DNA of 56,752 nucleotides from Rhodocyclales bacterium (lineage in GTDB: Bacteria; Pseudomonadota; Gammaproteobacteria; Burkholderiales; Rhodocyclaceae), in assembly GCA_016235805.1 (NCBI GenBank), contig JACRIY010000018.1, positions 1 to 56,752 on the forward strand, read 5' to 3'. The notes beneath the pieces were generated by a model. It saw only the letters and a program-made list of their open reading frames with translations. It was not told the DNA's origin and ran no database searches. A program made the position numbers and the translations under genes. Positions within the stretch are counted from its first letter, which is position 1. Every line of letters starts with the position of its first letter. Of this stretch, positions 33,565-51,820 are shown piece after piece.

Positions 33565-36462
33565 ATGTGGGAGATCTTCGCGTATCACAACAGCGATGCG
33601 TTGGCGGGCATCTTCAACGCTATCGCCGCCATCATGGCCTCGGGGACTTACCTGAGCGCCATTGCCGCGGTCGCGTTCTGCGGCTTCGTCGCTGCCATGG
33701 TGGCCTACATGTTCCAGCCCGAGAAGCTCGTCGGCTGGCGGTGGCTTGCATCGGTGGTGCTAATCTATGGCGTGCTCTTCGTTCCTCGCGTCACGGTGGC
33801 GGTGGTGGACAAGACGGGGGGCACGGCCAACCGGGTCATCGCAAACGTGCCTTTCGGGATGGCAGCCCTTGGCGGCCTCACCAGCACCATCGGGAACAGC
33901 ATCACGGAGCTTTTCGAGACCGCCTTCCAGACTCTGCCTGGTCCGGCTTCGTTGCCGGGTGAACTCTCGTACCAGCAGAACGGACTCATGTTCGGGAGCC
34001 GTCTCATCCAGGAGACTCGAAGCATCTCGATTCCCGACCCCGCGGTGTTGAACGACATCCTCAACTTCGCCAACAACTGCACCGCCTACGACATCGCCGA
34101 CGGCACGATCTCGGCCACGGCCTTTTCGACATCCGACAACCTATGGGCGGCGATGGCCGCAACCAATCCCGCGCGGTTCACGGTCATCACGGCTGGTGCA
34201 GGGGTCACCACAACGACCTGCGACGCCGCCTATGCTTCGATCGCTGGTCGCCTGCCCGCTCAGGTCAATGGGCTGATTGCGCGGCTGGGCCAGCGGCTGA
34301 ACCCCGACCTCTCTGCTGCAGCGGCTCAGGCAGCCGTGCTCAACCAAATTCCTCAGGCCTACATCCGTTCTCAAATCGCGGGAGCAGCAGCGACGGCCGC
34401 CGACCTGATCCGGCAGAACGCCATCGTGAATGCGATCAACGATGCAGGCGAAATGGGCTGTCAGCGCATCAACGATCCGGCGTGCATGATGCTTGCCACG
34501 GGTCGTGCGCAGGCGGTTGCGGCGCAGAACGCCTCCTGGATCAACGGGGCGAAGATTTCGTCGCAGGCGCTACCCGTGGTGCGCAACGTGGCCGAGGCGA
34601 TGTGCTACGCGGTCTTTCCGCTGGTGGTGCTGCTGCTGTTCCTCTCGAGCGGGCGCACAACGATCCTGATCCTCTCGGGGTACGCCATCGCCCTCGTGTC
34701 GATCCAACTGTGGCCGCCGCTGTTTGCGATCCTCAACTACATGGCCACGCTCTACGGTCAACTTGACCAGGCCGCTGCGGCCGAGATTGGCGGCGGGGTG
34801 AAGGCTCTGTCGCTGCAGACCGCATCGCCGATCTACTCCAACTCCGTGTCGGCGCAGGCGGTGGTCTCGTACTTGATCATCGGCATCCCGATGCTTGCCT
34901 GGTCGCTTGCCAACCGCATGGTCAATTTCGGGTCTGCGGTCATGGGTGGACTGCAGGGCCTTCAGGCCGCTTCCATGTCAGGAAACGCGTCCGCCGCAGC
35001 GGCGACTGGCAATGCGAGCATGGGCAATGTGTCCATGGATCAGCGGACGATCAGCCCGTCGACGTCGAACCCTTGGGTCAGTCGGGAGCAGGACCTCGAC
35101 GGCAACTGGGTCACGACCACTGCCAGCGGAACTCAGGCGACGTCCTACCTACGCAACGAGAGCGCCACCTCCCGTGTTGTGTCGTCGCGAGTTACCCAGT
35201 CGTCGGTTCAGGAGGCTTCCCGGTCTGTCGAAGCGGCGCGCACAGATGCGTTGGCAGCGTCGAGTGATCTCTCGTCGGCCTTGGTTGACACGATGTCTCG
35301 CGGAGCTGGCCGGTACCGCTCGACCGTGCGGAACGACGGTCAGTCCGTCAGTTCGAGCAACGAGCTTGGTGCGACGGCTGAGCGCTTGCGCGTAGCAAGC
35401 GAAGCGGTTGCGAAAACCACTGGCTTGAGCGCCCAGCAGGTTGCCAACATTGCGTTCCAACTCTCGGGCGGAGTAGGAACACCCGGGATCAGCCCTATCA
35501 AGGCAAGCGCAGGGGGCAGCGTCGGCAAGACCTATACGAGCACGTTGAACGATGCGGAGACAAAGGTTGCGAACGAGCTGTCAGCAGATCAGCTCAGGGA
35601 GTTCAAGTCGTTCGCCGAGCGCGCCACCCGCGATCAGTCCTTCGTGCGTGGACTCGGTACCGACCAGCGCGAAGGCACCGAGATTGCTTCGCGCCTCTCC
35701 ACTGCCGTCACCCGCTCGGAGAACGCTCAGTCCACGCTCGCGGACCGCACCGCCGTCGCCGAGCGCCTTTCCAGGGCATACGAAACAGGTGAAGTGCTTT
35801 CGATCGACCTCGCCCAGTTGCCGGCGAACTCCGACTTCATCGCCCGCTACAACCGCCTCGCGGCTGAATACGGCTCCGATAGCCTGGCTCTTCAAGCGGC
35901 CATGGCCAGTGAACTCGCCTCCCGAGCGCTTCCTCCCACAAGGACCGCCTCTGGGACCGCACTTCCCAGCACGTTCTCCGAGGTCCGAACGGTAAACCGC
36001 ACAAACAATGCGGACCCGATCTTCGCGAAAGAAAAAGTCACATCCGTCGATGCGGCAAACGATCGCACCGTTGGAACACGAATCGGAACTTCACCTCTGA
36101 CACCACCCTCCGTCCCGGCACGGCTAGATCAAGTACGCGATGACGTCGATGCCCAGGCGCGCGACGCAAATGCTCGACCGACACAGGCTTCAACGTTCGA
36201 GAAGCGCAACGAAATCATTCGCAACCCAGATGGGACAGTGTCAACCCGTCGCTCGCAAGTGCTGCGGGACGCCAGACAACTTCGTGATGACGCGGCAGCA
36301 CTTGCCGAGAACGCCCGAGAGGTCATCGAAGACGGACCCGAGGCGGCACTTCGATCCGCCGAAGAGGCACGCAAGCGTCAGGCAGATTCTCCGCGGGAGA
36401 AGGCGATCGATGCCACGCCCGAGGTCCCCACCCTGATGCCCAGGGGCGGCCGCCGCAAATAG
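33565..36462 (+). CDS. traG: TraG mating-pair stabilisation protein
   Basis: 965 residues. The TraG_N domain has membrane segments around 25-60, 75-95, 360-400 and 440-465. The long C-terminal part (from about 480) is hydrophilic, Ser/Ala/Thr-rich and periplasmic. In F, this C-terminal portion acts in mating-pair stabilisation and entry exclusion. It is the last gene of the F-type block; a convergent minus-strand gene begins 20 bases later. Confidence 0.9.
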   Translation: MWEIFAYHNSDALAGIFNAIAAIMASGTYLSAIAAVAFCGFVAAMVAYMFQPEKLVGWRWLASVVLIYGVLFVPRVTVAVVDKTGGTANRVIANVPFGMAALGGLTSTIGNSITELFETAFQTLPGPASLPGELSYQQNGLMFGSRLIQETRSISIPDPAVLNDILNFANNCTAYDIADGTISATAFSTSDNLWAAMAATNPARFTVITAGAGVTTTTCDAAYASIAGRLPAQVNGLIARLGQRLNPDLSAAAAQAAVLNQIPQAYIRSQIAGAAATAADLIRQNAIVNAINDAGEMGCQRINDPACMMLATGRAQAVAAQNASWINGAKISSQALPVVRNVAEAMCYAVFPLVVLLLFLSSGRTTILILSGYAIALVSIQLWPPLFAILNYMATLYGQLDQAAAAEIGGGVKALSLQTASPIYSNSVSAQAVVSYLIIGIPMLAWSLANRMVNFGSAVMGGLQGLQAASMSGNASAAAATGNASMGNVSMDQRTISPSTSNPWVSREQDLDGNWVTTTASGTQATSYLRNESATSRVVSSRVTQSSVQEASRSVEAARTDALAASSDLSSALVDTMSRGAGRYRSTVRNDGQSVSSSNELGATAERLRVASEAVAKTTGLSAQQVANIAFQLSGGVGTPGISPIKASAGGSVGKTYTSTLNDAETKVANELSADQLREFKSFAERATRDQSFVRGLGTDQREGTEIASRLSTAVTRSENAQSTLADRTAVAERLSRAYETGEVLSIDLAQLPANSDFIARYNRLAAEYGSDSLALQAAMASELASRALPPTRTASGTALPSTFSEVRTVNRTNNADPIFAKEKVTSVDAANDRTVGTRIGTSPLTPPSVPARLDQVRDDVDAQARDANARPTQASTFEKRNEIIRNPDGTVSTRRSQVLRDARQLRDDAAALAENAREVIEDGPEAALRSAEEARKRQADSPREKAIDATPEVPTLMPRGGRRK

Positions 36463-37628: not shown

Positions 37629-38654
37629 ATGTCCACCACCCCCATCGAACCGCCGCCCTCTCGGGACGGTCACAGCGAGGCGACGAGCTTCCCAGCCGTG
37701 GTTCTCGAAGTGCTCCGAGAGATGCGGGAGCAACGCGATTCCTTCGAGCGGTCAGCGGCACTAGCCGCCAAGGAGCGCAAGTCCGAGCGACGCTGGCGCA
37801 ACCTGTTCCAGGCCATGTTCTTCGGGGCGCCTGTGCTCCTCGGGGTGCTGTACTTCCTCTTCTTCCTGAGCTCGACGGGGTTCCGCTGGGGCCCCTTCGG
37901 CAATGTCGTCGGCATCGTTCGCATCGAAGGCCCCATCGGGTCGACGGAACGCGCCTCCGCCGAGAACATCATCCCGATCCTCGAGAAGGCCTTCGGCAAC
38001 CCGAACGTGAAGGGCGTCGTCCTGCACATCGATAGCCCCGGCGGCGCGCCAGTCGAAGCCGAGCGGATCTCCTCTGCCATCAACTCCCTCAAGGCCAAGC
38101 ATCGCAAAGAGGTGGTCGCCGTCATCAACAACCTCGGCGCGAGTGCCGCCTACATGGTCGCCTTGAATGCCGACAAGATCATCGCGGCCAAGTACTCGTT
38201 CGTCGGCTCGATCGGCGCCATCATGGCTCCGTGGCAACTGGACAAGGCCATCGCAAAGGTCGACGTGGCGCAGCGGGTCTACGCCTCGGGCAAGCTCAAG
38301 GCCTTCCTCAACCCGTTCACGCCGGTGTCCCCGGAGGTCGATCGCAAGGCGCAGCAACTGGTCGACCAGATGGGCGGGTTCTTCCTCGCCGAGGTGAAGG
38401 CCCGCAGAGGGCAGGCGCTAAAAGCCAACATCGACTTCGGCACCGGCGAAGTGTGGCCGGGGCCCGAAGCGAAGGAAATCGGCCTGGTCGACGCGGTAGC
38501 CACCGTCGACGACTACGTGGCAGTCCACTGGGGTCTCAGGCCCTACGACTACGGCCCCAGCACAGACACCGCCCCGTTTCTCACGAGGTCCCTGCAGGAT
38601 GCCCTCGCGGGCGCGGTCAAGCGACTCGCGCTCTCCGGCCCGGTCGTGCAGTAG
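37629..38654 (+). CDS. S49 family peptidase (SppA/SohB-like)
   Basis: 341 residues. A membrane helix (FFGAPVLLGVLYFLFFLSS, about 60-80) follows a cytoplasmic amino end. The protease domain shows VVGIVRIEGPI, VKGVVLHIDSPGG, Ser nucleophile S194 (FVGSIGAIM) and a Lys pair at K222/K224 (ASGKLK) near the expected base. Serine-lysine membrane peptidases of this type are found in several conjugative elements and are thought to clear signal peptides or membrane proteins. It may protect the envelope during channel assembly. Confidence 0.85.
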   Translation: MSTTPIEPPPSRDGHSEATSFPAVVLEVLREMREQRDSFERSAALAAKERKSERRWRNLFQAMFFGAPVLLGVLYFLFFLSSTGFRWGPFGNVVGIVRIEGPIGSTERASAENIIPILEKAFGNPNVKGVVLHIDSPGGAPVEAERISSAINSLKAKHRKEVVAVINNLGASAAYMVALNADKIIAAKYSFVGSIGAIMAPWQLDKAIAKVDVAQRVYASGKLKAFLNPFTPVSPEVDRKAQQLVDQMGGFFLAEVKARRGQALKANIDFGTGEVWPGPEAKEIGLVDAVATVDDYVAVHWGLRPYDYGPSTDTAPFLTRSLQDALAGAVKRLALSGPVVQ

Positions 38655-39363: not shown

Positions 39364-39990
39364 TCACGCAGCACTACCGCGCGTACCGCGCCGCAGGCGC
39401 GTCAGCTTCGCGACTTTGATGCGAAAACCCACCAACTGCTCGGAGACGTTGAAGTGCCTTCCGATCGCGCCGACGTCCATCCCGCCCGCCAACATCTCGC
39501 GCAGCGATCCATAGGGCACCAGGGCAGCTGCGCCGCTGCCGTAGGCTTCGCTTTCCTTGCCACTGTCAAAGTCCCTTCCGCCGGCGCCATCAGAGTGCAG
39601 TCGGATCTTCGTCGGAGGGTGTCCCAGCCAGAGATGGAAGAACTCCTCCATCAGGGTCGCCCGTACACGGGTCTCCGAGTGGAATCCGTTGTAGACGACC
39701 AAGTGATCGCCCTCAGGCAGCGGTATGCACATCCCCGACCACCGAGTCTGACGTGAGCCCGAGAAGTGGCGCTCCTGCTCGTCGGGTGCTCCAAGATCCG
39801 TGTGCGGCACGACATCCAGCACGCTGTCCAGGAGTTCGAACGCCGCCATGTGATCCAAGGGTTCATCGCCCCGCAGGCGCAGCTCGTGCCGCACGTCCAG
39901 CGCGTTGTGCTCGTGCTCCCAACGCGTCGGATTGGGAGGCAGAAGCCCCTTGCCCTTGCGACTACTTCTGAGATCGAACCTTTTTCGCAT
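39364..39990 (-). CDS. ImmA/IrrE-like metallopeptidase, EEFFH variant
   Basis: 208 residues from ATG 39990, overlapping the preceding XRE gene by 29 bases. The core TLMEEFFHLWLGHPP matches the zinc-peptidase box of ImmA/IrrE proteins, with Glu in place of the first His of HExxH. A later Glu lies in GKESEAYGSGAAALVPY, the usual third-ligand region. The C-terminal helix-turn-helix-like part (GAIGRHFNVSEQLVGFRIKV) is normal for the family. These proteases cut or relieve an XRE repressor encoded beside them. The XRE partner and the divergent ubiquitin-like cassette suggest stress-controlled expression, as in CapH-CapP pairs of CBASS systems. Confidence 0.75.
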   Translation of the reverse strand: MRKRFDLRSSRKGKGLLPPNPTRWEHEHNALDVRHELRLRGDEPLDHMAAFELLDSVLDVVPHTDLGAPDEQERHFSGSRQTRWSGMCIPLPEGDHLVVYNGFHSETRVRATLMEEFFHLWLGHPPTKIRLHSDGAGGRDFDSGKESEAYGSGAAALVPYGSLREMLAGGMDVGAIGRHFNVSEQLVGFRIKVAKLTRLRRGTRGSAA

Positions 39991-40330
39991 GGTTGTAGCC
40001 TGCCCTGACCATCGCCACGAGTGCCTCCACGTCGGGGCCTTCGAGACCAGGCAAGGCACGCAAGTGGACTTCCACGTCCGCAATCGTCGACCCCTTTTCA
40101 CGCACGGGCGCAGCCGATAGATCGGACAGCGAGGTGCCTGCCCAGTCGGCTGCCTTGCTGACGTTCGCCAGGTCGGGCGTCGTCGTGCTCGCCGAGCCCT
40201 GCAGGAGCCTGCTGAGGGTGGCTGCCCCCAGCCCCATTTCTGTGGCAGCTGCCCGCACCGACAGCTCACGAAGCTGCATCTTCGAACGTAGTCGGATGGC
40301 GAGTTGGTCGAGGTTGAATTCGTGCGGCAT
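39962..40330 (-). CDS. XRE-family regulator paired with ImmA-like protease
   Basis: 122 residues from ATG 40330, with GGAG 6 bases upstream. A Cro/CI-type helix-turn-helix occupies residues about 20-60 (ELSVRAAATEMGLGAATLSRLLQG). The C-terminal part (LPGLEGPDVEALVAMVRAGY) probably mediates dimerisation or contact with the protease. It is the first gene of a divergent unit opposite the ubiquitin-like cassette, with 368 bases between them. Likely role: repressor of its own operon and perhaps of the cassette. Confidence 0.75.
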   Translation of the reverse strand: MPHEFNLDQLAIRLRSKMQLRELSVRAAATEMGLGAATLSRLLQGSASTTTPDLANVSKAADWAGTSLSDLSAAPVREKGSTIADVEVHLRALPGLEGPDVEALVAMVRAGYNHAKKVRSQK

Positions 40331-40698
40331 GCCTGTCTCCTGGAGGGGCGGGAAATCCGTCGAACGACCGCAGCCCGGCCTCTCGAGCTCCCGGGGCTTT
40401 CGGGGGCGCAACGGACGGCATTGAACGCGATGCAGTGTCGGCGGGCTGAAGCAACGCATCGGCAGGGGTGCGTGAGAGCGAGCGCGCAGCCCGATACGGC
40501 GCGCCGCATGCGTCGCCACCGCAACCGGACGCCACGCACCCCGGCCGCAACGGTCGGTGCTTGACACGGAGGCAATGGTGCTCCACATTTGAATCAGTGC
40601 ATCACGGCTGGCGCAGTTCTCATAGGGATTGTTCCACGAATGACGCATTGCATCAAGCGCCTGCGGCGGCGCTGTTCCGTTGGCCAAAGGAGCCAGTC
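40331..40698. promoter_or_regulatory. Divergent control region between XRE gene and ubiquitin-like cassette
   Basis: 368 bases with no gene. It must hold the promoters for both directions. AAAGGAG lies just before the cassette's first ATG at 40699. I could not pick out a clear operator palindrome or -35/-10 pair by eye. Confidence 0.45.
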
Positions 40699-41169
40699 AT
40701 GAACGATCTGTCGTTGGAATTGGAACTCGAGGGCAACACCGCCACCACGGTGCTGCAGGTGCCTCCCAACCTGGAGGCCATCGCGGCGGCGGCGCGTGCG
40801 CACGTCCCGGGCGCCGACGCGCTGCACTTGTTCGAAAAGGACAGCGACGAGGAGCTCGCGAGCGTCGAAGGCCGCCGCGCGATCGCGATCGTGGCTCACC
40901 GCTGCAAGCAGCTCGCCGTGAAGGTGGACTTCAACGGCGGTTCGCACACCGAGCGTTTCCCGCCATCGGCGACGGTCGGGAAGGTTCTGCGCTGGGCGAC
41001 CGGCAAGCGCGGCTTCAACCTCGACGACGATGCCCGGCCCAAGGCAAACCTCATCGTGCGCGGTACCGAGCAGCCGCTGCCCAAGGACGCGCCCATCGGG
41101 CGCTACGCGATCGCCGGCACGTGCAACGTCGAACTTGACCTGACCCTGAAGGACTTCACCAATGGCTGA
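40699..41169 (+). CDS. BilA-like double ubiquitin-like protein
   Basis: 156 residues from ATG 40699, where AAAGGAG gives the ribosome site; the frame continues upstream without support. Two beta-grasp-like units follow each other: about 1-70 (LSLELELEGNTATTVLQVP) and about 71-156 (QLAVKVDFNGGSHTERFPP, ANLIVRGTEQPLP). Two fused ubiquitin-like domains are the arrangement of BilA and of eukaryotic ISG15. The C-terminus ends in a single Gly (DFTNG), suitable for adenylation by an E1 without prior trimming. Followed by E2, JAMM and E1 genes with overlaps of 4 to 53 bases, as in Bil operons that tag phage structural proteins. Confidence 0.8.
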   Translation: MNDLSLELELEGNTATTVLQVPPNLEAIAAAARAHVPGADALHLFEKDSDEELASVEGRRAIAIVAHRCKQLAVKVDFNGGSHTERFPPSATVGKVLRWATGKRGFNLDDDARPKANLIVRGTEQPLPKDAPIGRYAIAGTCNVELDLTLKDFTNG

Positions 41170-41662
41170 TGAGACCTCCCCGCCGGCGCGCACCTTGATC
41201 GCGCAGATCAACTCGGTGTCGGTCCAGCGCGGCATCGAAGAAGGTCGGTGGCTGATCCAGGCACTGGACTTTCCCGACCTGCACGTCCGCATCATCGCGA
41301 CGGATCCCGAGACGCGTACGCAGGCGCAGGCGGACTTCCATTTGCTGTGCGACGACTTCCCTGCGCTGGGCCCCTTCGTCGAACGGTGGGACTTCGCCTC
41401 CGGCACGCGCCCTGCGCCGCCGGCGGGCGGCCAGGCGTCGCCGGGCTACGTCGATGCGCTGAAGGACTGGAATGAGCAGCCGACGCAGCATGGCGGCGTC
41501 TACCGGGCCTGGCAGCGCTACGCCTCGCGTCACAACGGGTGGGCCGCCAAGCGACCCGACGAGGCCTGGCATCCCGGGCGCCACATCGCCTTCATCCTGG
41601 AGCGACTCCATGACCTCGTGGCTGAACAAGCTGTTTGGCTGGCTGTCCGCAAAGCGGCCTAG
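41162..41662 (+). CDS. BilB-like E2 conjugating enzyme
   Basis: 166 residues; the ATG lies inside the last codons of the ubiquitin-like gene. It matches prokaryotic E2-fold proteins in order and pattern: beta strands around RWLIQALDFPDLHVRII, then FHLLCDDFPALGPFVERWD. The only Cys in the protein is C63 in LLCDDFP, earlier than the canonical E2 nucleophile but in the C-D-x-(Y/F)-P setting seen in some bacterial E2s. The C-terminal helix contains WHPGRHIAFILERLHDLV. If the protein forms a thioester, C63 must carry it. Assignment rests on operon order as well as these motifs. Confidence 0.7.
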   Translation: MADETSPPARTLIAQINSVSVQRGIEEGRWLIQALDFPDLHVRIIATDPETRTQAQADFHLLCDDFPALGPFVERWDFASGTRPAPPAGGQASPGYVDALKDWNEQPTQHGGVYRAWQRYASRHNGWAAKRPDEAWHPGRHIAFILERLHDLVAEQAVWLAVRKAA

Positions 41663-42128
41663 CCTCACTTGCGATGCCGACGTGTGGCGCGACGGTACCG
41701 CGGAACTGAACCGCCGCACGCTGGACGGACGCCGCGAGAGCGGCGCCTTTCTGATCGGCCGCCGACGCGGAAGCGCGTGCCACATCGAAGAGTTCGTGTT
41801 CTACGACGACCTCGATCCGCACGCGCTCGCCACCGGAATCGTGCACTTCGACGGCAACAAGTTCACCAAGCTCTGGGACATCTGCCGTTCGCGCGGGCTC
41901 AGCGTCGTGGCCGATGTCCACGTCCACCCCGGCGGCTACGAGCAAAGCGCTTCCGACCAGGACGAGCCCGCCATCCCGTGCGCGGGGCACATCGCGATCA
42001 TCCTCCCGCACTTCGCCAGGCGGTCGGTCGAGCCGGGTGGCATCGGTCTGTATCAGTACCTCGGCAACAAGCGCTGGCGAGACCACACCCAAAGCGGCCG
42101 CAACTTCTTCAGGCTGATTCGACCATGA
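41610..42128 (+). CDS. BilC-like JAMM deubiquitinase
   Basis: 172 residues from ATG 41610, inside the end of the E2 gene, with GGAG upstream. A JAB/MPN metalloprotease: E43 (ESGAFLIG), then H104-V-H106-P, S113 and D116, the complete JAMM zinc signature. It would process or remove the ubiquitin-like tag. Its amino end has a short amphipathic helix (WLNKLFGWLSAK). Stop overlaps the E1 start (ATGA). Confidence 0.88.
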   Translation: MTSWLNKLFGWLSAKRPSLTCDADVWRDGTAELNRRTLDGRRESGAFLIGRRRGSACHIEEFVFYDDLDPHALATGIVHFDGNKFTKLWDICRSRGLSVVADVHVHPGGYEQSASDQDEPAIPCAGHIAIILPHFARRSVEPGGIGLYQYLGNKRWRDHTQSGRNFFRLIRP

Positions 42129-43465
42129 GCACTCTGCACCTCGAACACTCGCGGGTCACGAAGGCGTTGACCGACAACTCCGACATCGACTTCGCCGAAG
42201 CCGAGCGGCGCCTGCGCGCGACCCACGTTGTCGTGCTCACCGAGGGGGCTGACCTGTCGAGCCCCGCGGCCCTGTGGTGCGTGCTGACCGCGCTGAACGC
42301 GAGCAGGCGGACGTTCGGCTCTGCGACGCTGGTCCTGACGTTCGACGTCCCGCTGCAGCGCGCACTGCCCGGCGCCATCACGCTGGGCATGGCAGCGCGG
42401 CTGATGGGCGCGACCGTGGTGCGTTCAGTACCGGAGCATGCGACCCACGTCATCTGCGTGGGCACCGCGCTGGAATCCGCGGCGTTCTGCGTGCACTGCT
42501 GGTGGAACGGCTGGTTGGCCGGCATTCGGCCGTCCTGGGATCCGGCGCCGGCGCAAGCAGCATGGAACCCGCTGGCCGGCATTGTCGCCGCCGCGATCGC
42601 GGTGCGCGAGGTGTTCGCGAATGTGCGTGGCATCCGCTCGTCGCCGCGCGCGACGACCCTGTCGCTGTGGGAGCCATGGTGCGACCCCGGCGCTGCGTCC
42701 CCGGGGCCCCACGTGGTTCACGGCATCCGCGCGCTGTGGCTGATCGGCCTCGGACACCTGGGACAGGGCATCGGTTGGTCGCTGTCGGCCTTGCCGATGG
42801 CCGGGCGGATCGCGCTGCAGGACGATCAAGCCGCCGGCATCGAGAACGAGGCGACCGGATTGGTCACTTGGTCGACGGACGTCGGACGGCGCAAGACACG
42901 CATCGCGGCAGGCTGGCTCGAGCACTTCGGGTGGGAGACGGATCTAATCGAGCGTCGGTTCGGTGCTGACACCTCGGCCTCGATCACCGATCCGCCGGTT
43001 GTGGTGACGGCCCTCGACAGTCCCGCGCCACGCCAGCACGTGCACGCGGCCAGCTTCGCCTACATGGTCGACATCGGCGTGGGCCACGGTCCGGTCGACT
43101 TCGAGTCGGGGCAGTTGCGCGTGTTCGCGCGCGGCGACCCCGCCAACTGGCAGGCTGCAGCAGGCTCCAAGAACATCGATCGACTGCTGCAGCGACCGGC
43201 CTATGAGCAAGTGGCATCCAAGGATCGATGCGGCGCTTTCGAGCTCGCCGACGCGAGCGTGGCGGTGCCGTTCGTGGGAGCCGCGATGGGTGCGCTCGCA
43301 GTCGCGCAGCTGGCGCGCCTCGGGGCGATGGAGCCGGCGATCCGGCTCATGCAGATCGAACTCGGAGCGCCGGACATGGCGTCCTGCGGCGCGATGGCTG
43401 CGGCGCCGCTCGGAAACCTCGGCACAGTGGAAATGGATCTTCGCGGTGCCTGCACCCGCCTGTGA
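42125..43465 (+). CDS. BilD-like E1 activating enzyme (ThiF fold)
   Basis: 446 residues. A Rossmann nucleotide site G208-L-G210-H-L-G213 (LIGLGHLGQG) and a second acidic segment (ALQDDQAAGIENEATG) define the ThiF/E1 domain. C369 in KDRCGAFELAD is the likely thioester Cys, followed by VAVPFVGAAMGALAVAQLARL. An amino-terminal extension of about 200 residues is typical of E1s in bacterial ubiquitin-like operons. It would adenylate the C-terminal Gly of the double ubiquitin-like protein and pass it to the E2. The operon ends here, only 4 bases before a convergent gene. Confidence 0.85.
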   Translation: MSTLHLEHSRVTKALTDNSDIDFAEAERRLRATHVVVLTEGADLSSPAALWCVLTALNASRRTFGSATLVLTFDVPLQRALPGAITLGMAARLMGATVVRSVPEHATHVICVGTALESAAFCVHCWWNGWLAGIRPSWDPAPAQAAWNPLAGIVAAAIAVREVFANVRGIRSSPRATTLSLWEPWCDPGAASPGPHVVHGIRALWLIGLGHLGQGIGWSLSALPMAGRIALQDDQAAGIENEATGLVTWSTDVGRRKTRIAAGWLEHFGWETDLIERRFGADTSASITDPPVVVTALDSPAPRQHVHAASFAYMVDIGVGHGPVDFESGQLRVFARGDPANWQAAAGSKNIDRLLQRPAYEQVASKDRCGAFELADASVAVPFVGAAMGALAVAQLARLGAMEPAIRLMQIELGAPDMASCGAMAAAPLGNLGTVEMDLRGACTRL

Positions 43466-43469
43466 AGTG

Positions 43470-43658
43470 TCAGCGCTTCTTGCGATGCGTGGGCACGATA
43501 GGGATGGAGATCCCCGTCCCCTTGATCGGATCCCCAACGAGACGGCGCACATCGGCGATCAGGTAGCTTCCGCTGCGGGCTAGGTTCGCTTCCATGCTCG
43601 TGACCACTTCCTTCAACGTTCGCTGGTCGACTGCCCTTCTGACGTTCGCCTTGTTCAT
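43470..43658 (-). CDS. Small protein translationally coupled to proteasome-like peptidase
   Basis: 62 residues; the ATG at 43658 overlaps the stop of the peptidase gene (ATGA). Helical at the amino end (VRRAVDQRTLKEVVTSMEANLA), then a basic tail (PTHRKKR). No family recognised. Tight coupling suggests a partner, inhibitor or substrate adaptor of the peptidase. Its stop lies 4 bases from the stop of the E1 gene on the other strand. Confidence 0.6.
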   Translation of the reverse strand: MNKANVRRAVDQRTLKEVVTSMEANLARSGSYLIADVRRLVGDPIKGTGISIPIVPTHRKKR

Positions 43659-44518
43659 GAGAAGTCTCCGTCTTCGATCGCCGCGTCCCACGGCTTGTGC
43701 CGGACCCATCGGAACCGTCTGTCGGAGGTGATCACGGCGATCTCGATCGGCCCCCCGCACACTTGGGCACCGGTCGAAAACTTCATCGCCTTGATCGTGC
43801 AGTAGATCGCCGAATGGACATAGTCGATCGCATCGCGCATCGGCAACCGGGCCCGCGGCTGCAGCCCGTGCGCTGCCAACAGGTCGGCCAGATCCTCCGG
43901 AGTTCCGCTCCACTTGCCGGAGGCCAGAAGCGCATCGATGAATGGCTGGTCCACGCCGTATCGCAGGCGATTCATCACGTTGGGCATGCCCCATAGCTGC
44001 AGCTCGTTGAGAACCGGCTTGGTAACGCTGGGGACAAGCTCGGTGGCCTTGAAAGTGATGATACGGGCGTCAGGAACACGTTCGGGCATGCAATGCCCGG
44101 CAACGCAGAAGCCCACAGCGTTCGCGTCTACGCGATCGCGCAGCTTTGCATCGTCTTTGCCTTTGCCACCGGCTCGGCGTCCTGCCTTGCTCAGCGCCTT
44201 GCGCAGGTCGACCACGGGCTGGTGCGCGTCGTAGAGGGGCTGGAACAAGCGCACCCATCGCGTTGCCACGTCGTCGATCGAAGGTGGAGGGTCTCGGGCT
44301 AGGTCGTCGCCGAGCAACGCCACGAGCCGGCGGTAGCTGACGTCGCCGATGTGCCCGACGCCCCAGGTCAGCAACCCGAACGTCGAGCCCTCGCCGATCT
44401 CGAACAGCTTCTGCGCGAAGTTGAAGTAGTGCAGGTGCTCGTCGCCGAGAAACGAGGATGTGCTGTCCGCACCGAGCACGATGCCCTCCTGCGTGACGTA
44501 CAAGCCGGCAATGGTCAC
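43655..44518 (-). CDS. Proteasome beta-type threonine peptidase
   Basis: 287 residues from GTG 44518. The frame extends further upstream to 44674, but GGAGG sits 7 bases before this GTG, and the product then begins Met-Thr-Ile-Ala-Gly. Removal of Met exposes Thr1, as in HslV. Counting from that Thr, D17 (VLGADST) and K36 (QKLFEIG) match D17 and K33 of proteasome beta subunits, and GVGHIGD fits the G47 region. It is longer than HslV (about 175) or Anbu (about 240). It might belong to the betaproteobacterial proteasome homologue group (BPH) or be a separate family. Neighbours are the ubiquitin-like cassette (convergent) and a coupled small gene. Confidence 0.8.
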   Translation of the reverse strand: MTIAGLYVTQEGIVLGADSTSSFLGDEHLHYFNFAQKLFEIGEGSTFGLLTWGVGHIGDVSYRRLVALLGDDLARDPPPSIDDVATRWVRLFQPLYDAHQPVVDLRKALSKAGRRAGGKGKDDAKLRDRVDANAVGFCVAGHCMPERVPDARIITFKATELVPSVTKPVLNELQLWGMPNVMNRLRYGVDQPFIDALLASGKWSGTPEDLADLLAAHGLQPRARLPMRDAIDYVHSAIYCTIKAMKFSTGAQVCGGPIEIAVITSDRRFRWVRHKPWDAAIEDGDFS

Positions 44519-44663
44519 CTTCTGCCCTCCCCGGGGTCTGTTCGGCCGGCGTGATGTGCCTGTCGCGCCAGTCGTGTTTGGGGCGGCATTCTCGTCTCGC
44601 GTCCGGCACGACACAAGTGGCGGATTCCTCTTCGATGCCGCGTCGGCGACCTGAGCCACCACC

Positions 44664-44930
44664 TCATGTGCCAAACGCCTCCCTCATCTGCCGCGCCCGC
44701 CGCGCCTGATCCGCATGCGGGTACACCGACGTGGTGGACACCGAGGCATGCCGAAGGTTGTCGCGCACGGTCGTGAGCTCATCGCCGGCTTCAGGGTTGC
44801 TGCGGGGCGCATGCGTGTGCCCCAGCCGGTGCGGCGTGGTGAGCCGCAGCTTCTGCGCCGTCCCGGGAACGGTCAAGTGAAGCTGTTCCGCCGTGTGCCT
44901 CGAAGAAGCGCCGGAATACCGCCCACACAC
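44664..44930 (-). pseudogene. C-terminal fragment of a tyrosine integrase
   Basis: About 88 codons matching only the last catalytic part of a phage-type integrase: a box resembling HxLRHTHA (PHRLGHTHA), LRHASVSTTSVYPHAD with the Tyr, and RRARQMREAF. The amino-terminal domains and first catalytic Arg are missing. It marks the edge of an older insertion next to the peptidase gene. Confidence 0.65.
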
Positions 44931-45319: not shown

Positions 45320-46822
45320 TCACGCGGCCGGAGGCGCGCCGTCTTGTGCAGGCGCATCGAACGCAGCGTCCCTCTCCTGGCCATCGTTCGCCAGCATCAT
45401 GTTCCAGGTGAACGAACTGTACGGATGGAATTCGGGCAGCAGGCTTTGGACCTGGCCGTCGGCGAAGAAGTGATGGGCGATCCCGGGGAACATGTGCGGG
45501 TCGACCGGACGCTCTGCGTGCGGGTTGTGGAACATCGACAGGCCTTCGGCCCAGGTCTCCGTGACGTCGCCCTGCTTCACCTCGTGGAAGAAGGGCTCCG
45601 GCAAGGCCGCATTCCGGTCGTGGCGATGCTTCACGCCCCCTCGGTAGACGCGTTGGTTGGCAAGCCCGAAGCCGGCGAGCATCCCCATGCGGTTGAACTT
45701 GGAGATCGTGCCGGACGACGAGAAGAGCACCGCGCTCACGTGCTCGGCGCCCGGCTGGAAGAAGTAGCCTGACGGGATGACCTTGCCTTCGTGCTCATGC
45801 GTCTCGATCTTCAGCGGCGTGATCACAAGCTGTCCGGCATCGTCGAAGAGGAAATCGTGAGTCACGCCGTACAGGTACTCGAGGAGCGCGGGCGATGTCC
45901 AAGTCATCGACTGGTCCTCGTGGAAGTCGGCGACCGCGAAGATCAGCGAGTGCCCCTTTACGTGCTCGAGCTCCCAGTAGGGCGTCTTCCGGTTGAGCTT
46001 GGAGTACAGCGCGCTGCCGAACCGGATCGGCACGCGCGTCTTGATCAGCGCGCGGATTTCTTCGGTGGTGCGCAGGTGGGGGCGCCCGTCGGACCGGCTT
46101 TCCAGCGGCGGGTCCTTCGGCGATCGACCGACGATGACGGCCTCGATGAACGCCTTCTGGCGCCCTGCCCTCACCTCGAAGTCCGGCGCCTCGTGCTCCT
46201 TGCTGACGAACAGGCCGAGCTCGAGCAATGCGGCGTAGAGGTACAGCTCCCAGATCCGCGAGTCGAAGGCCGTCGTCTGGAACTGCTGCACGAAGTTGCC
46301 GTCGACGTCGACGAAGTGCCGCATCATCTCCGACATGATGGCCCGGGCGGGCGTCCAGTGCGGGGCCTCGCTCAGCAGCCGAAAGGCCGCATGCCGACCG
46401 TCTGCGGGTCCCTGCAGGGCGAAGAGGTCGACGCCCGCCTTGTCCTCGTCCTCATCGTCCTGCGGGAACACGCTCTGTCCGCTCTCGGTGTGCTTGCGCA
46501 TTGACGCGAAGAGCGCGTGGCGCGCCTGCGTCCGGCTCATGCTCGCCGACATGTCGATGCAACGGAACCGGCCTTTCCGGTCGCGCCCGAGCACGACGCA
46601 GCCGTAGTCTCGATCGGTCCGATCGATGATCAGCACCCCGATCAGCGTCTGCGGCCTGTTGGCGAAGAACTCGACTTCGCGTCCGTACGCTTCGAAGATC
46701 GGCGATCGGGTCCACGCGACGAAGGCGTTGTACCGCTCGGGCGTCAGCGGCACGACGCCGCTGTCGTCGAGCAGGGCCGCCACCCGCTGCTCCCTCGTGC
46801 CCCGTCGCTTCGCCTCGCCCAT
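45320..46822 (-). CDS. Large protein with possible PD-(D/E)XK-like core
   Basis: 500 residues from ATG 46822 (MGEAKRRG), with GAGG about 12 bases upstream; the longer frame to 47239 lacks a start site. A central segment WELYLYAALLELGLFVSKEH then PDF (D214) and FIEAV (E227) resembles a restriction-nuclease-like fold with P-D and E-x-A. The usual Lys is not evident, so activity is doubtful. The C-terminal region (FFQPGAEHVSAVLFSSSGTISKFNRMGMLAG) looks like a second conserved unit. Function unknown; cargo position suggests defence or DNA handling. It is divergent from the lipoprotein gene at 47100. Confidence 0.6.
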   Translation of the reverse strand: MGEAKRRGTREQRVAALLDDSGVVPLTPERYNAFVAWTRSPIFEAYGREVEFFANRPQTLIGVLIIDRTDRDYGCVVLGRDRKGRFRCIDMSASMSRTQARHALFASMRKHTESGQSVFPQDDEDEDKAGVDLFALQGPADGRHAAFRLLSEAPHWTPARAIMSEMMRHFVDVDGNFVQQFQTTAFDSRIWELYLYAALLELGLFVSKEHEAPDFEVRAGRQKAFIEAVIVGRSPKDPPLESRSDGRPHLRTTEEIRALIKTRVPIRFGSALYSKLNRKTPYWELEHVKGHSLIFAVADFHEDQSMTWTSPALLEYLYGVTHDFLFDDAGQLVITPLKIETHEHEGKVIPSGYFFQPGAEHVSAVLFSSSGTISKFNRMGMLAGFGLANQRVYRGGVKHRHDRNAALPEPFFHEVKQGDVTETWAEGLSMFHNPHAERPVDPHMFPGIAHHFFADGQVQSLLPEFHPYSSFTWNMMLANDGQERDAAFDAPAQDGAPPAA

Positions 46823-47099
46823 GCTCCCTCGCCTCCCTGTCCGACCAACGCACGCGGCGTGGTTCGCCACGATGATGGCAACGCAGCCCCCGCGCGCGTC
46901 CGATTCTCCCGTCGTCGCGCGCCACACGCGGCGACGGTGACGTCCTTCCAGGGGACATCTTCCGGGCACCCGAGCACAAGACCGGCCAGCGACTGCAAGC
47001 GGCATCGTCAGGATTGATGATTCGGTGGTGCCGCGCGCTAGGAATGATCGTCGGTCGGCAAGGTCCGGTACGACGTCGGACCAACATGGGGAGGATCGC

Positions 47100-48641
47100 A
47101 TGCATCGAACCGGGTGGTACGGTTTGGCGGCCATCGCTGTCGCCTTGGCCGGCTGCGGCGTCACGCTCGAGGCGACCCGGGTCGCGCCGACCGATCGGGA
47201 GAAGGGGCTGACGCCCACGAGGGTCAAGGGCGAGGGCATCGTCTATGCGCTGCCGCGAACCGAGTTCGAGGTGGTCCAGCCGCTGAAGCTGAAGTTCTCG
47301 ACGGCAGGCGGGCTGCGTGAGACCTATTCGACCTGCAAGCGCGCCTGCGCGGCAGATCCGAACAATACCGGCGACGCCTGCAAGTTCGACACGGCCCCGA
47401 CGCTGCTGTTCGCCCCGCCGGAGCTGCGCACGGCGTCCCGGCCTGACTACACACGGCTGTACCAGGTCACGCCCTCGGCGGACCTCTTCCAGTCGCTGAC
47501 CTTCAAGTTCGAGATCGCCTCTAACGGTGTCGTGGACAAGATCGACGCCACCGCCTCGAACACCGGATTCGAGGTCGTCAGCAGCCTGGCCTCGGCCCTG
47601 ATCAAGGCCGCGCCGGCCGCCCGCGCGGCGATGGAGGCGAACACCCGCGTCCTGAGCGCGACGCGTCGCACCTGCTACCAAGTGTCGAACGACGTCGTCA
47701 AGCTCCTGGAGCAGAGTTCGGGTGCATTGAGTTGCGGCCTCGCCCAGGAGGTCGAAGGCTGCCTCGTCTCGTACGAACAGGACGTGAAGTCGGCGCAGAA
47801 GAGCGTCGACGACCTCTTCGACCGCGCCGAGCGCGGTGTGTTGAAAGCCGACGTGGTGGGCGCGATCGCCACCCACCGCAAGGACCGCTTGGCGGCGGCC
47901 ACCGCACGCCGAGATGAGGCAGCGGGGCTGTTCGGGCTTGCCGACGGGAAGGACGTCGAGGCGGTCTACCAGGTCATCGTGCCCATGGGCGGGCCCGCGG
48001 AATACCAGCCGCATGCCACAGAAGCGACCCTGGGGCCGCTCGTGGCGCGCGGCGAGGCCCGCGTTGTCGGCATGTCCGACAACGCGGGTAGCTTCCTTGC
48101 GAAGATGCTGACCCCGCTGAAGGCGAGCACCCGCCACTACGCCGTTGCGAGCACGATGCCCGGCACCTTCGACGCCGCGACCGTCGACGAGAGTGCAGCG
48201 CTTGGCAAGGGCTATCGCTACAGGGTCCCCGTCTCCGCGCCGACGACACTGACCGTCTACAAGGACTCGAGCAAGGGCGCCTTCGCGTTCGGGCCCGCGA
48301 CGGACCAGAAAGTGATCGCCCAGTACGGACCGATCGCCGCGCTGCCCTCTTCGTTCAAGGGCAAGGGGGGACACGTGCTGGTGAAGCACTGGCCCGACTC
48401 GGGAGGCCTGCAGACCGTCGAGATCGGTGCGGAGGCGCTGCCAACGTCGGCAGTGACCAACGTGATCGACACCGCCTCCGAGCAGCTCAAGGCGCGGCGC
48501 GACAAAGCCGCGGCCGCTGCAGCGGCCGCGGCGGCCGCCGACCCCGAACTCGATGCGCTGACGCGCCAGCAGAAGATCCTCGCGCTGCAAAAGCAGATCC
48601 GCGATCTGGAGGCCGAGCTGGCCAAGCAGGAGGGCAAATGA
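47100..48641 (+). CDS. Lipoprotein of unknown function paired with a metzincin
   Basis: 513 residues from ATG 47100 (GGGGAGGATCGC upstream). Lipobox ALAGC at about 20. The body has FKFEIASNGVVDKIDATAS, several Cys (about 80-230), and long helices; the C-terminus is an Ala-rich coiled coil (QQKILALQKQIRDLEAELAKQ). No family named with confidence. The next gene, a secreted metalloprotease, starts inside its last codons, so the two work together, perhaps as surface anchor and protease. Confidence 0.65.
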   Translation: MHRTGWYGLAAIAVALAGCGVTLEATRVAPTDREKGLTPTRVKGEGIVYALPRTEFEVVQPLKLKFSTAGGLRETYSTCKRACAADPNNTGDACKFDTAPTLLFAPPELRTASRPDYTRLYQVTPSADLFQSLTFKFEIASNGVVDKIDATASNTGFEVVSSLASALIKAAPAARAAMEANTRVLSATRRTCYQVSNDVVKLLEQSSGALSCGLAQEVEGCLVSYEQDVKSAQKSVDDLFDRAERGVLKADVVGAIATHRKDRLAAATARRDEAAGLFGLADGKDVEAVYQVIVPMGGPAEYQPHATEATLGPLVARGEARVVGMSDNAGSFLAKMLTPLKASTRHYAVASTMPGTFDAATVDESAALGKGYRYRVPVSAPTTLTVYKDSSKGAFAFGPATDQKVIAQYGPIAALPSSFKGKGGHVLVKHWPDSGGLQTVEIGAEALPTSAVTNVIDTASEQLKARRDKAAAAAAAAAAADPELDALTRQQKILALQKQIRDLEAELAKQEGK

Positions 48642-49755: not shown

Positions 49756-49856
49756 TTTCAGGCAAACTCCTGGTTTCAGCAGGCGCTGAAACTTCACATA
49801 AGGCTGAAAGTCGTCCTTAATTTCAGTCGATGTGCTATATTCATCGGACGCTGAAA
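49756..49856 (+). promoter_or_regulatory. Six TTTCAG/CTGAAA half-sites and promoter before AbiE genes
   Basis: TTTCAG at 49756, 49774 and 49821, and CTGAAA at 49786, 49804 and 49851, lie in facing pairs (for example TTTCAGC-AGGC-GCTGAAA region at 49774-49791). TATATT at 49836-49841 is a good -10; the -35 is weak. AbiEi antitoxins repress their own promoter by binding inverted repeats, so these are likely operators. Confidence 0.6.
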
Positions 49857-49868
49857 ATACCACCTCCG

Positions 49869-50975
49869 ATGAAACAGTCTGCCGCCGACATCGAGGACGC
49901 CTGGCCCACCGTGCTGGTGGCGCTCCTCGAACGGTCGCCTCTGGTGACCGACGTGCTAGTGGAGACCTCGGTCGTCGGTCGCGATGGTAGCGACAGCGAA
50001 CTCGACGGCGATGTGACCTTCAAGGTCGCGGGTGAACCCCACCGGCTGATCGTGGAATGCAAATCGTCCGGGCAGCCGCGCCACGTCCGAGGCGCGATCC
50101 AGCAGCTGGGCCAGGCCATCTTCCGGGCGCACGAGTTGACCCGGGGCCTGTTCGTTGCGCCCTTCATCTCGCCAACCGTCCGCGAGCTGCTGGCGCAGAC
50201 CAACATCGGATGGCTCGACCTTGCAGGGAACGCGCGTGTGGTGTTCCCGAGACTGCACCTCGAAGTCGAGAAGGCGGACCGCGACCCGTTCGCGACCAGG
50301 CGGGAGCAACGATCGCTCTTCTTTCCGAAGTCGGCGCGCCTCCTCAAAGTGCTGCTGCACCACCCGCAAGTGCCCTGGAAAGTGACTGACCTGGCGGAAA
50401 AGGCCCAGGTCAGCCTGGGCCAGGTGAGCAATGTCCGCCGCGCACTCATCGATCGGGAGTGGGCCACTGCCGAGGCGGGCGAAGGACTGCGGCTGACGCA
50501 GCCTGACGCCCTGCTCGACGCCTGGCGCGACGATGGTCTGCTTCCTCCGAGCGTTGCCTTGCGAGGCTACACGCTTAAGCACGGCAAGGCGCTCGAGGCG
50601 GCGATGGAGGCAGTGTTCGCAGACCCCGCCCTCAACGGCGATTCGCGGGTGCTACTCGCTTCTCACTCCGTCGCCCGGCGGGCCGCTCCTTATGCTCGCA
50701 TCGCCGGGGAGTTCTTCTATGCCAGCGAGGTGGGCATCCGCCTGCTCAAGCGCCACCTGGACCTGGCCACGGCGGACAAGGGCGAGAACATCACCATCTA
50801 CCGCCCAAGTGATGAGGGCCTGTGGATGGAGACCATGAAGGTGAGCCACGACATGATGGGCACGGGTCCGATCCAAACCTACCTCGACCTTCTGACCACC
50901 GGCGAGCGGGGCCGCGAGGCCGCTGAACACTGGCGCGCCGAACGCATCAGGCCCTTGCTCGCAGGAGTACCCTGA
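49869..50975 (+). CDS. AbiEi-like antitoxin / winged-helix protein
   Basis: 368 residues from ATG 49869; no good ribosome site is visible. The amino-terminal third is restriction-nuclease-like in pattern (SELDGDVTFKV, then E63-C-K65 in LIVECKSSG). A winged helix follows (KVTDLAEKAQVSLGQVSNVRRAL), and the C-terminal half matches AbiEi-type antitoxins (GEFFYASEVGIRLLKRHLDL). The next gene encodes the nucleotidyltransferase partner and shares one base (TGATG). Type IV toxin-antitoxin pairs of this kind abort phage infection or stabilise mobile DNA. Confidence 0.7.
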   Translation: MKQSAADIEDAWPTVLVALLERSPLVTDVLVETSVVGRDGSDSELDGDVTFKVAGEPHRLIVECKSSGQPRHVRGAIQQLGQAIFRAHELTRGLFVAPFISPTVRELLAQTNIGWLDLAGNARVVFPRLHLEVEKADRDPFATRREQRSLFFPKSARLLKVLLHHPQVPWKVTDLAEKAQVSLGQVSNVRRALIDREWATAEAGEGLRLTQPDALLDAWRDDGLLPPSVALRGYTLKHGKALEAAMEAVFADPALNGDSRVLLASHSVARRAAPYARIAGEFFYASEVGIRLLKRHLDLATADKGENITIYRPSDEGLWMETMKVSHDMMGTGPIQTYLDLLTTGERGREAAEHWRAERIRPLLAGVP

Positions 50976-51820
50976 TGGAAGGGAAGTCCGCGGCCGAGTA
51001 CGACGACGTCACTGCCAGCGCCGTGCTGTCGGTCTTGCTCGAGATAGGGCAGGTCCTCGGCGCCTTCAGGGACCGCTTCGTCGTGATCGGTGGCTCGGTC
51101 CCATGGCTGCTGCTGCCCAATGCGCAGCCCAGCCACATCGGGACGCTGGACATCGATCTCAGCCTCGATGCCGAGGCGCTCGGCGACGGGGACTACAAGT
51201 CCCTGGTGGACTCTCTCCTGGCCGCGGGCTACACGCGCAACGAGGCCGAGATGAAGTGGTTTCAGTTGCGTCGCCTGGTCGAAGTCAAGGCCCACGGTCG
51301 GGTGCCGGTTCTCGTGGATCTGCTGATGCCGCGCGAAGCGAAGTTCAAGCGAAACAAGCCACCGTTGCTTGCGAACTTCGCGGTGCAGAAGGCCGACGGG
51401 GCAGCTGTGGCGATGAAGTCCTACGTGACGCACACCATTGACGCCGCGATGCCAGACGGACGGCCCAATGCGGTGGACCTGCGCGTGGCCAGCATCCCGG
51501 CACTGCTCGTGATGAAAGGCTACGCGCTTGTCGGCCGAGACAAGCAGAAGGACGCCTACGACATCTACTTCTCGGTACGCAGCTTCGAGCCTGATGTCGG
51601 TGCACTCGCCGCCGAGTGCATGCGTCTCATCGACGACCCGATCGCACTCGCCGGCTTCAGCCACATCGCGAGCAAGTTTAGGCACGAAACCGACTTCGGA
51701 CCCACGACGGTCAGAGCATTTCTGGCTGATTCGGGATCCTTCGCGGGCATGACACCCGAGCAGGTTCAGATCGATGCGTTTCGTCAGGTCCGTGCGTTGC
51801 TCGATCGCATGGGACTCTGA
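50975..51820 (+). CDS. AbiEii-like nucleotidyltransferase toxin
   Basis: 281 residues. Nucleotidyltransferase signature G39-G40-S41 (VIGGSVPWLL) followed by D59-x-D61 (TLDIDLSL). Later segments KDAYDIYFSVR and MKGYALVGRDKQK are as in AbiEii/DUF1814 proteins. AbiEii-type enzymes block growth by adding nucleotides to tRNA or other targets, and the paired AbiEi neutralises them. No terminator with T-run follows. Confidence 0.8.
   Translation: MEGKSAAEYDDVTASAVLSVLLEIGQVLGAFRDRFVVIGGSVPWLLLPNAQPSHIGTLDIDLSLDAEALGDGDYKSLVDSLLAAGYTRNEAEMKWFQLRRLVEVKAHGRVPVLVDLLMPREAKFKRNKPPLLANFAVQKADGAAVAMKSYVTHTIDAAMPDGRPNAVDLRVASIPALLVMKGYALVGRDKQKDAYDIYFSVRSFEPDVGALAAECMRLIDDPIALAGFSHIASKFRHETDFGPTTVRAFLADSGSFAGMTPEQVQIDAFRQVRALLDRMGL

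Follow-up and report, generated by a model that had tools for sequence, protein, structure and literature searches.

A proteasome-like threonine peptidase gene and a small gene overlapping its stop codon adjoin a BilABCD antiphage cassette on a contig of a Rhodocyclales bacterium (JACRIY010000018.1), of which we analyzed a stretch of 56,752 nucleotides, here called the window. We propose, at a probability of about 0.55, that the two genes form a mobile peptidase module that sits as cargo beside Bil in a defence island, acts in phage-host conflict, and is independent of Bil. Both the frequent coupling of a small gene to these peptidases and their positions on viral contigs, near repressor and antiterminator genes, are new in this analysis.

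Start codon, fold and family of the peptidase

The peptidase gene lies on the minus strand (43655..44518) and comprises 287 codons, which run from a GTG at 44518 down to 43658 and are followed by a stop codon at 43655-43657. A likely ribosome-binding site, GGAGG, is read from the sequence 7 nt before the GTG (44526..44530, minus strand). Upstream of the GTG the frame stays open, with a TTG at 44674. We surveyed the start codons of 151 peptidase loci, the window included; 18 loci with an unscorable motif or frame and 30 sequence repeats were dropped, leaving 103 distinct peptidases. In 102 of them, a threonine directly follows the start codon (ATG in 81, GTG in 11, and TTG in 10) and is placed exactly 16 residues N-terminal to Asp17, while the sole exception, L052, has a serine at the Thr1 position. 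This placement across the family indicates that the peptidase starts at the GTG and that no propeptide is encoded in the gene. A start further upstream, which would make the threonine internal and which the initial annotation had named as the outcome that would speak against it, is ruled out by the family alignment, and the GTG with its GGAGG spacing was called correctly there.

Thr1, Asp17, and Lys36 are invariant in all 27 aligned full-length peptidases; counted from the initiator methionine, the invariant positions are Thr at residue 2, Asp18, Ser19, and Lys37. The alignment bears out the earlier proposal that removal of the methionine would expose Thr1 and that the other two residues are the equivalents of Asp17 and Lys33 of the proteasome. 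With the methionine removed, as we infer, the protein would have the Thr/Ser nucleophile at the mature N terminus, together with Asp17 and Lys33, that marks the proteasome family.

The AlphaFold2 monomer model of the peptidase (pLDDT 86.8, pTM 0.85) gave 444 matches in the PDB at an E value of ≤0.001. The best 50 of these 444 are all proteasome subunits or Anbu, with 9 to 15% identity and a TM-score on query length of at most 0.51, and the predicted model thus has the proteasome fold. The structure prediction called for in the initial annotation, along with the invariant residues, thereby agrees with its assignment to the beta-type proteasome peptidases. At the sequence level, the family profile retrieved weak proteasome matches as its top 12 among PDB sequences (E values of 0.0014 to 0.018), followed by an unrelated HMG-CoA synthase at 0.028, while the single sequence found chance-level matches only. 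No match to the peptidase was obtained in Pfam (up to an E value of 10, the curated 20S/HslV proteasome profile included), NCBIfam, or PADLOC. A viral structure library returned 10 weak matches to the model at an E value of ≤0.001, some of them phage proteins. A family of phage proteins, phrog_5990 (function unknown, 427 amino acids), matched the peptidase at 2.8e-7 in two stretches, and it matched two long-form relatives of 433 and 443 residues far better (5e-79 for L003 and 3.6e-62 for L005). The window protein is homologous to phrog_5990 but about 140 residues shorter. That the frame is a chance one is ruled out by homologs across phyla and by the fold, and we regard both the gene call and the enzyme class as well supported.

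Compared with the 20S proteasome beta subunit, HslV, Anbu, and BPH, the peptidase has the same fold and the same Thr1-Asp17-Lys33 arrangement but differs by extra helices. Fuchs, Alva, and Lupas described 22 new proteasome homologs in 2021 (PMC8665760). In the PMI homologs (Proteasome homolog with Multiple Insertions) of that study, insertions lie after helices 1/2, where they are long in PMI-3 and PMI-4, and between helices 3/4 in PMI-2 to PMI-6, and PMI-5 has an additional unstructured insertion between strands 3/4. In our model, a first insertion (helices 100-112 and 121-132) follows helices 62-75 and 81-98, and a second one (helices 191-199 and 207-217) falls between helices 179-187 and 227-245; these places agree with the first two PMI insertions by order of elements, a comparison made between the model and the published text under our own helix numbering and without superposition. 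Residues 28-34 are modeled with low confidence. The extra helices at the first two PMI places and the low confidence at 28-34 make PMI the likely home, and the peptidase, as matched to the published description, probably belongs to this group. Shared with it are Thr1-Asp17-Lys, the absence of a propeptide, both insertions, and a low-confidence S3/S4 loop; presence in phages (PMI-4) and the lack of a known AAA+ partner are likewise common to both. A scan of 10 window proteins between 39364 and 50975 found no AAA+ gene beside the peptidase. The PMI homologs were reported to have neither an AAA+ partner nor a genomic context or co-occurrence that would hint at their function, and the words operon, neighborhood, and small protein do not occur in the main text of that paper (PMC8665760), whereas we find that the peptidase has a small gene coupled to it and lies at cargo positions.

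The coupled small gene

The small partner gene (43470..43658, minus strand, 62 amino acids) is joined to the peptidase stop by an ATGA overlap. It converges on bilD, its end at 43470 and the end of the bilD stop at 43465 leaving 4 bases between them; this 4-base gap had been noted before and does exist, but it belongs to the small gene and not to the peptidase. We scored coupling as an ORF of 45 to 80 codons starting between -40 and +25 from the stop. By this measure, 68 of 86 peptidases had a coupled short ORF, against 73 of 370 other long ORFs of the same loci. The 86 (window excluded) were distinct by their last 80 residues, matched the motif search, and had at least 300 bases after the stop; the controls were ORFs of at least 250 codons, picked by length and uncurated. 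The remaining 18 of the 86, the Mesorhizobium member L061 among them, lacked the small gene by this measure.

Judged by its codons, the small gene looks real: 18 synonymous and 11 nonsynonymous codon differences separate its 62 codons from those of the phage contig L002. Fifteen small proteins of the window's clade could be aligned; they are invariant at the first Met and at G42 and share the loose motif TG.YR..D...LGDP. Outside this clade the small proteins are too divergent for common descent to be provable. The 62-residue protein was modeled with low confidence (pLDDT 66.6) as two helices and a loose tail. It had been suggested as a stand-in for an unfoldase, a role for which it is too small; an ATPase unfoldase is ruled out by size. 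We found no earlier description of this small partner, either in the main text of the 2021 paper or in a literature search on the name of the group, which listed that paper alone.

In most of the relatives scored, the two genes overlap tightly, which, together with their mobile distribution, would suit a toxin-antitoxin-like pair, in which the small protein restrains a harmful peptidase until infection upsets the balance. L002 (8001-8389) holds the whole small gene and only the last 67 peptidase codons, which differ from the window by 15 synonymous changes and 1 nonsynonymous change, as might be expected of a phage carrying an inhibitor; the contig is possibly such a phage, but possibly also a decayed copy or an assembly join. 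Most antitoxin genes are placed the other way round, and the position of the small gene downstream of the peptidase argues against this reading, which we consider unlikely.

Defence-island setting and mobile distribution

The ubiquitin-like cassette next to the pair is a BilABCD antiphage system, with genes for a ubiquitin-like protein, E2, JAMM, and E1 in order on the plus strand and all four PADLOC profiles matching, in keeping with the ubiquitin-like cassette named in the initial annotation. The genes are bilA (40693..41169; ubiquitin-like protein ending in ..FTNG; PDLC03844, 3.5e-40, in a scanned stretch that begins two codons before the Met), bilB (41162..41662; E2-like; PDLC03845, 1.8e-36; PF24702, 1.9e-10), bilC (41472..42128; JAMM/JAB with HxH..SxxD present; PDLC03846, 4.5e-64), and bilD (42128..43465; E1-like; PDLC03847, 2.6e-122; ThiF at 4.2e-4, under the Pfam cut-off). 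Since the PADLOC match in bilC begins at residue 55, the true start of this gene is probably further in. Unlike known BilABCD, the window has a BilB without the CEHH motif, which is also missing from BilB of L084 and L085 and present in L086 and L087. The three proteins without it have one cysteine in common, within a stretch L.C..(F/Y)P..GP(F/Y)V, and their sequences may point to a subtype of Bil whose E2 is different or inactive.

On the other side of the peptidase lies a PD-T7-1-type defence gene (45320..47239, minus strand; PDLC04073, 9.5e-174, matching from residue 164), so that the peptidase stands in a defence island, flanked by BilABCD and PD-T7-1. A short ORF resembling an integrase C terminus (44664..44930, minus strand) is found directly upstream of the peptidase, and its XerC-type (4.3e-6) and PF00589 (0.0026) matches are both under curated cut-offs. 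A further ORF (39364..40575, minus strand) encodes a Peptidase M78 (IrrE/ImmA-like) domain in residues 289-387 (PF06114, 2.8e-7) and lies on the strand opposite to bilA; it is overlapped by an HTH-type ORF (39962-40687, by eye) divergent from bilA, and the annotation of L084 likewise places an XRE-family gene upstream of Bil. Further out, two adjoining genes at 49830-51820 resemble an AbiEi/AbiEii toxin-antitoxin pair (AbiEi_2 at 0.0035, under the cut-off, for the first; by eye for the second), and a TraG-like conjugation protein (33565-36462) and an S49-type peptidase (37629-38654) were recognized by eye. An integrative conjugative element may thus extend over the window.

Relatives of the peptidase are patchily distributed. 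Among 399 genomes of the order, only the source genome gave a match. A scan of 398 genomes of the phylum brought up the long relatives L003 and L005, its other, weak matches being judged chance from those listed and left aside; the long form itself was present in 9 of 398 genomes of the phylum. An alignment scan of viral contigs gave two full-length relatives, 45% identical, and a genome collection gave 33 peptidase loci, including one of Collimonas sp. OK242 that is 50% identical along its full length. The window peptidase had no match among proteins of plasmid and phage records, nor had L021 among plasmids.

In annotated phages, the peptidase lies beside antiterminator, holin, and lysozyme genes. 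On viral contigs we compared 150 of the 180 genes nearest to 50 distinct members. Among the matches listed (the best 25 of 242 families, where one gene can match several), repressors (phrog_4, 12; phrog_8, 11), Q-like antiterminators (phrog_79, 7), HNH proteins (phrog_96, 4), holins (3), and endolysins (2) were found; the PADLOC matches (best 25 of 146 families) were mostly HTH and methyltransferase models. Places near repressor and antiterminator genes often hold prophage cargo. For the genome collection, the 150 genes nearest to 32 loci included integrases (3), resolvases (2), and GH25 (3) and no ubiquitin-like family among the best 25 of 99 Pfam families. PADLOC gave HEC-01 (3), mad3 (4), AriA (3), RmrA (3), and AbiLi (3) among the best 25 of 153, mostly from overlapping ATPase or HTH models; here as on the viral contigs, each PADLOC family listed was in at most 4 of the 150 genes. 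As these tallies are raw and have no background control, we draw no conclusion from them on whether defence genes are enriched or scarce. Both L016 (by Pfam) and L017 (by eye) have an integrase nearby.

The positions beside Q-like and holin genes would equally suit a phage fitness gene, and five close relatives (L023, L027, L029, L030, and L033) lie, by eye, among ordinary chromosomal genes. The peptidase could accordingly be imagined as a fitness protease of lysogen or phage, or as a general quality-control peptidase, with no part in defence; its patchy occurrence and its defence-island location in the window speak against this, and we hold it to be quite improbable.

Linkage to ubiquitin-like genes and proposed role

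The initial annotation saw in the two neighbours a hint of a tag-and-degrade module. In such a module, the peptidase would remove or trim proteins carrying the Bil (or a multiubiquitin) modifier, and the small protein would serve as its adaptor. We searched 151 nonduplicate peptidase loci other than the window (1.92 Mb, median 13.2 kb, fragments and close copies included; 125 with a scorable frame) by tblastn with the window Bil proteins and with multiubiquitin, E1, and DUF6527 proteins of Rhizobium and Mesorhizobium. Bil genes were found at none of the 151 loci (E value of ≤1e-3), and multiubiquitin-E1 genes were found near the peptidase at five, from two lineages. The 125 scorable loci form 86 clusters at 80% identity, of which 2 are ubiquitin linked (L059 is among the 26 unscored loci). 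Absence of linkage elsewhere, which had been named as evidence against the module, is therefore what we see for Bil in the loci examined, but not for the ubiquitin-like systems of Rhizobium and Mesorhizobium.

Four Rhizobium plasmids of one lineage (L057, L059, L060, and L066; about 78 to 97% identical among plasmids) carry a distant, long-form peptidase near a multiubiquitin-E1-DUF6527-ClpP operon. The long peptidase gene is followed on the opposite strand by genes for an ART-like protein (by eye), a protein of 60 residues, and an HTH protein, and then come the multiubiquitin, E1, DUF6527, and ClpP-like genes. In L022, a close relative of the window peptidase is also followed, at 0.5 kb, by a gene for a ClpP-like serine protease (11391-12230) that is 36% identical to the Rhizobium ClpP over 75 residues (6e-12). 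On the Mesorhizobium plasmid (L061), a long-form peptidase is near multiubiquitin, E1, and DUF6527-like genes. The two linked peptidases share only 28% identity, and that of Rhizobium is closer to L003 (44%), which has no multiubiquitin-type genes in 16 kb; the Rhizobium and Mesorhizobium linkages thus are separate events.

Two such lineages exceed the roughly 0.014 expected in 1.92 Mb at uniform density, a rough estimate from 12 multiubiquitin loci in 398 genomes and an assumed mean genome of 4 Mb. Uniform chance is, however, an unfair null, as accessory genes cluster in islands. Seen from the other side, the peptidase was absent from the four strong (L084-L087) and two weak (L088 and L089) other Bil loci and from 12 multiubiquitin loci, within flanks that reached about 9 kb on contigs of sufficient length (those of three multiubiquitin loci are truncated, in one case to 3.4 kb). 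The 28 plasmid records with BilD-like matches include none of the 10 with a long-form peptidase. In what appears to be the same sample of 398 phylum genomes, multiubiquitin was listed for 12 and the long peptidase for 9, and the two lists share no genome. BilD was found at an E value of ≤1e-10 in none of 7 genomes of peptidase relatives; 5 of the 7 gave weaker matches (best, 1.2e-5), of a kind that 6 of 14 controls, E. coli included, also gave at the cut-off used. A search of the viral contigs with exact short patterns of BilD returned nothing.

Among the loci examined, then, the peptidase does not behave as a conserved component of Bil, a Bil subunit being ruled out by these counts, and linkage of tag genes to the protease is not conserved. 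Moreover, the closest relatives (40 to 50% identity) are all without ubiquitin-like genes, the window genes are convergent rather than one operon, three opposite-strand genes intervene in Rhizobium, and the L059 peptidase match is split in two pieces. No paper tying this peptidase group to ubiquitin-like systems was found by title and start of abstract, in a search that covered open-access journal papers. Three separate ubiquitin-like neighbours (Bil in the window and multiubiquitin-E1 in Rhizobium and in Mesorhizobium) leave a small chance of coupling, but degradation of tagged proteins by the peptidase is very unlikely, as is the related idea that PMI-type peptidases were recruited at least three times beside ubiquitin-like systems to act as an ATPase-free tag-and-cut pathway.

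We therefore return to the mobile module. Its relatives usually have a small gene of their own and are rarely found by ubiquitin-like genes, so that Bil and the peptidase look like mere neighbours, placed side by side as cargo of a single defence island. The mechanism ascribed to Bil, which we take the cassette to share, presumably needs no degradation. The peptidase would be a stand-alone, proteasome-like threonine enzyme, probably of the PMI group, in which plain methionine removal would free Thr1. The coupled protein, probably helical, would most likely bind and control it as an inhibitor, adaptor, or assembly factor. Prophages, integrative elements, and plasmids would carry the two genes as cargo. 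In the conflict between phage and host, the pair would most likely act by cleaving a protein of one or the other, with no unfoldase of its own, and would leave Bil-tagged proteins alone.

For one PMI-like group, the coupled small partner and the cargo positions on viral contigs provide a testable partner and setting, and it is in this partner and in the mobile life of a group of proteasome homologs that the value of follow-up lies. A passage of Iyer 2006 (PMC1779556) calls the link of bacterial ubiquitin-like parts to proteolysis less clear. Should the ubiquitin-like neighbours prove functional, they would represent a bacterial form of tag-guided proteolysis built from ubiquitin-like parts.
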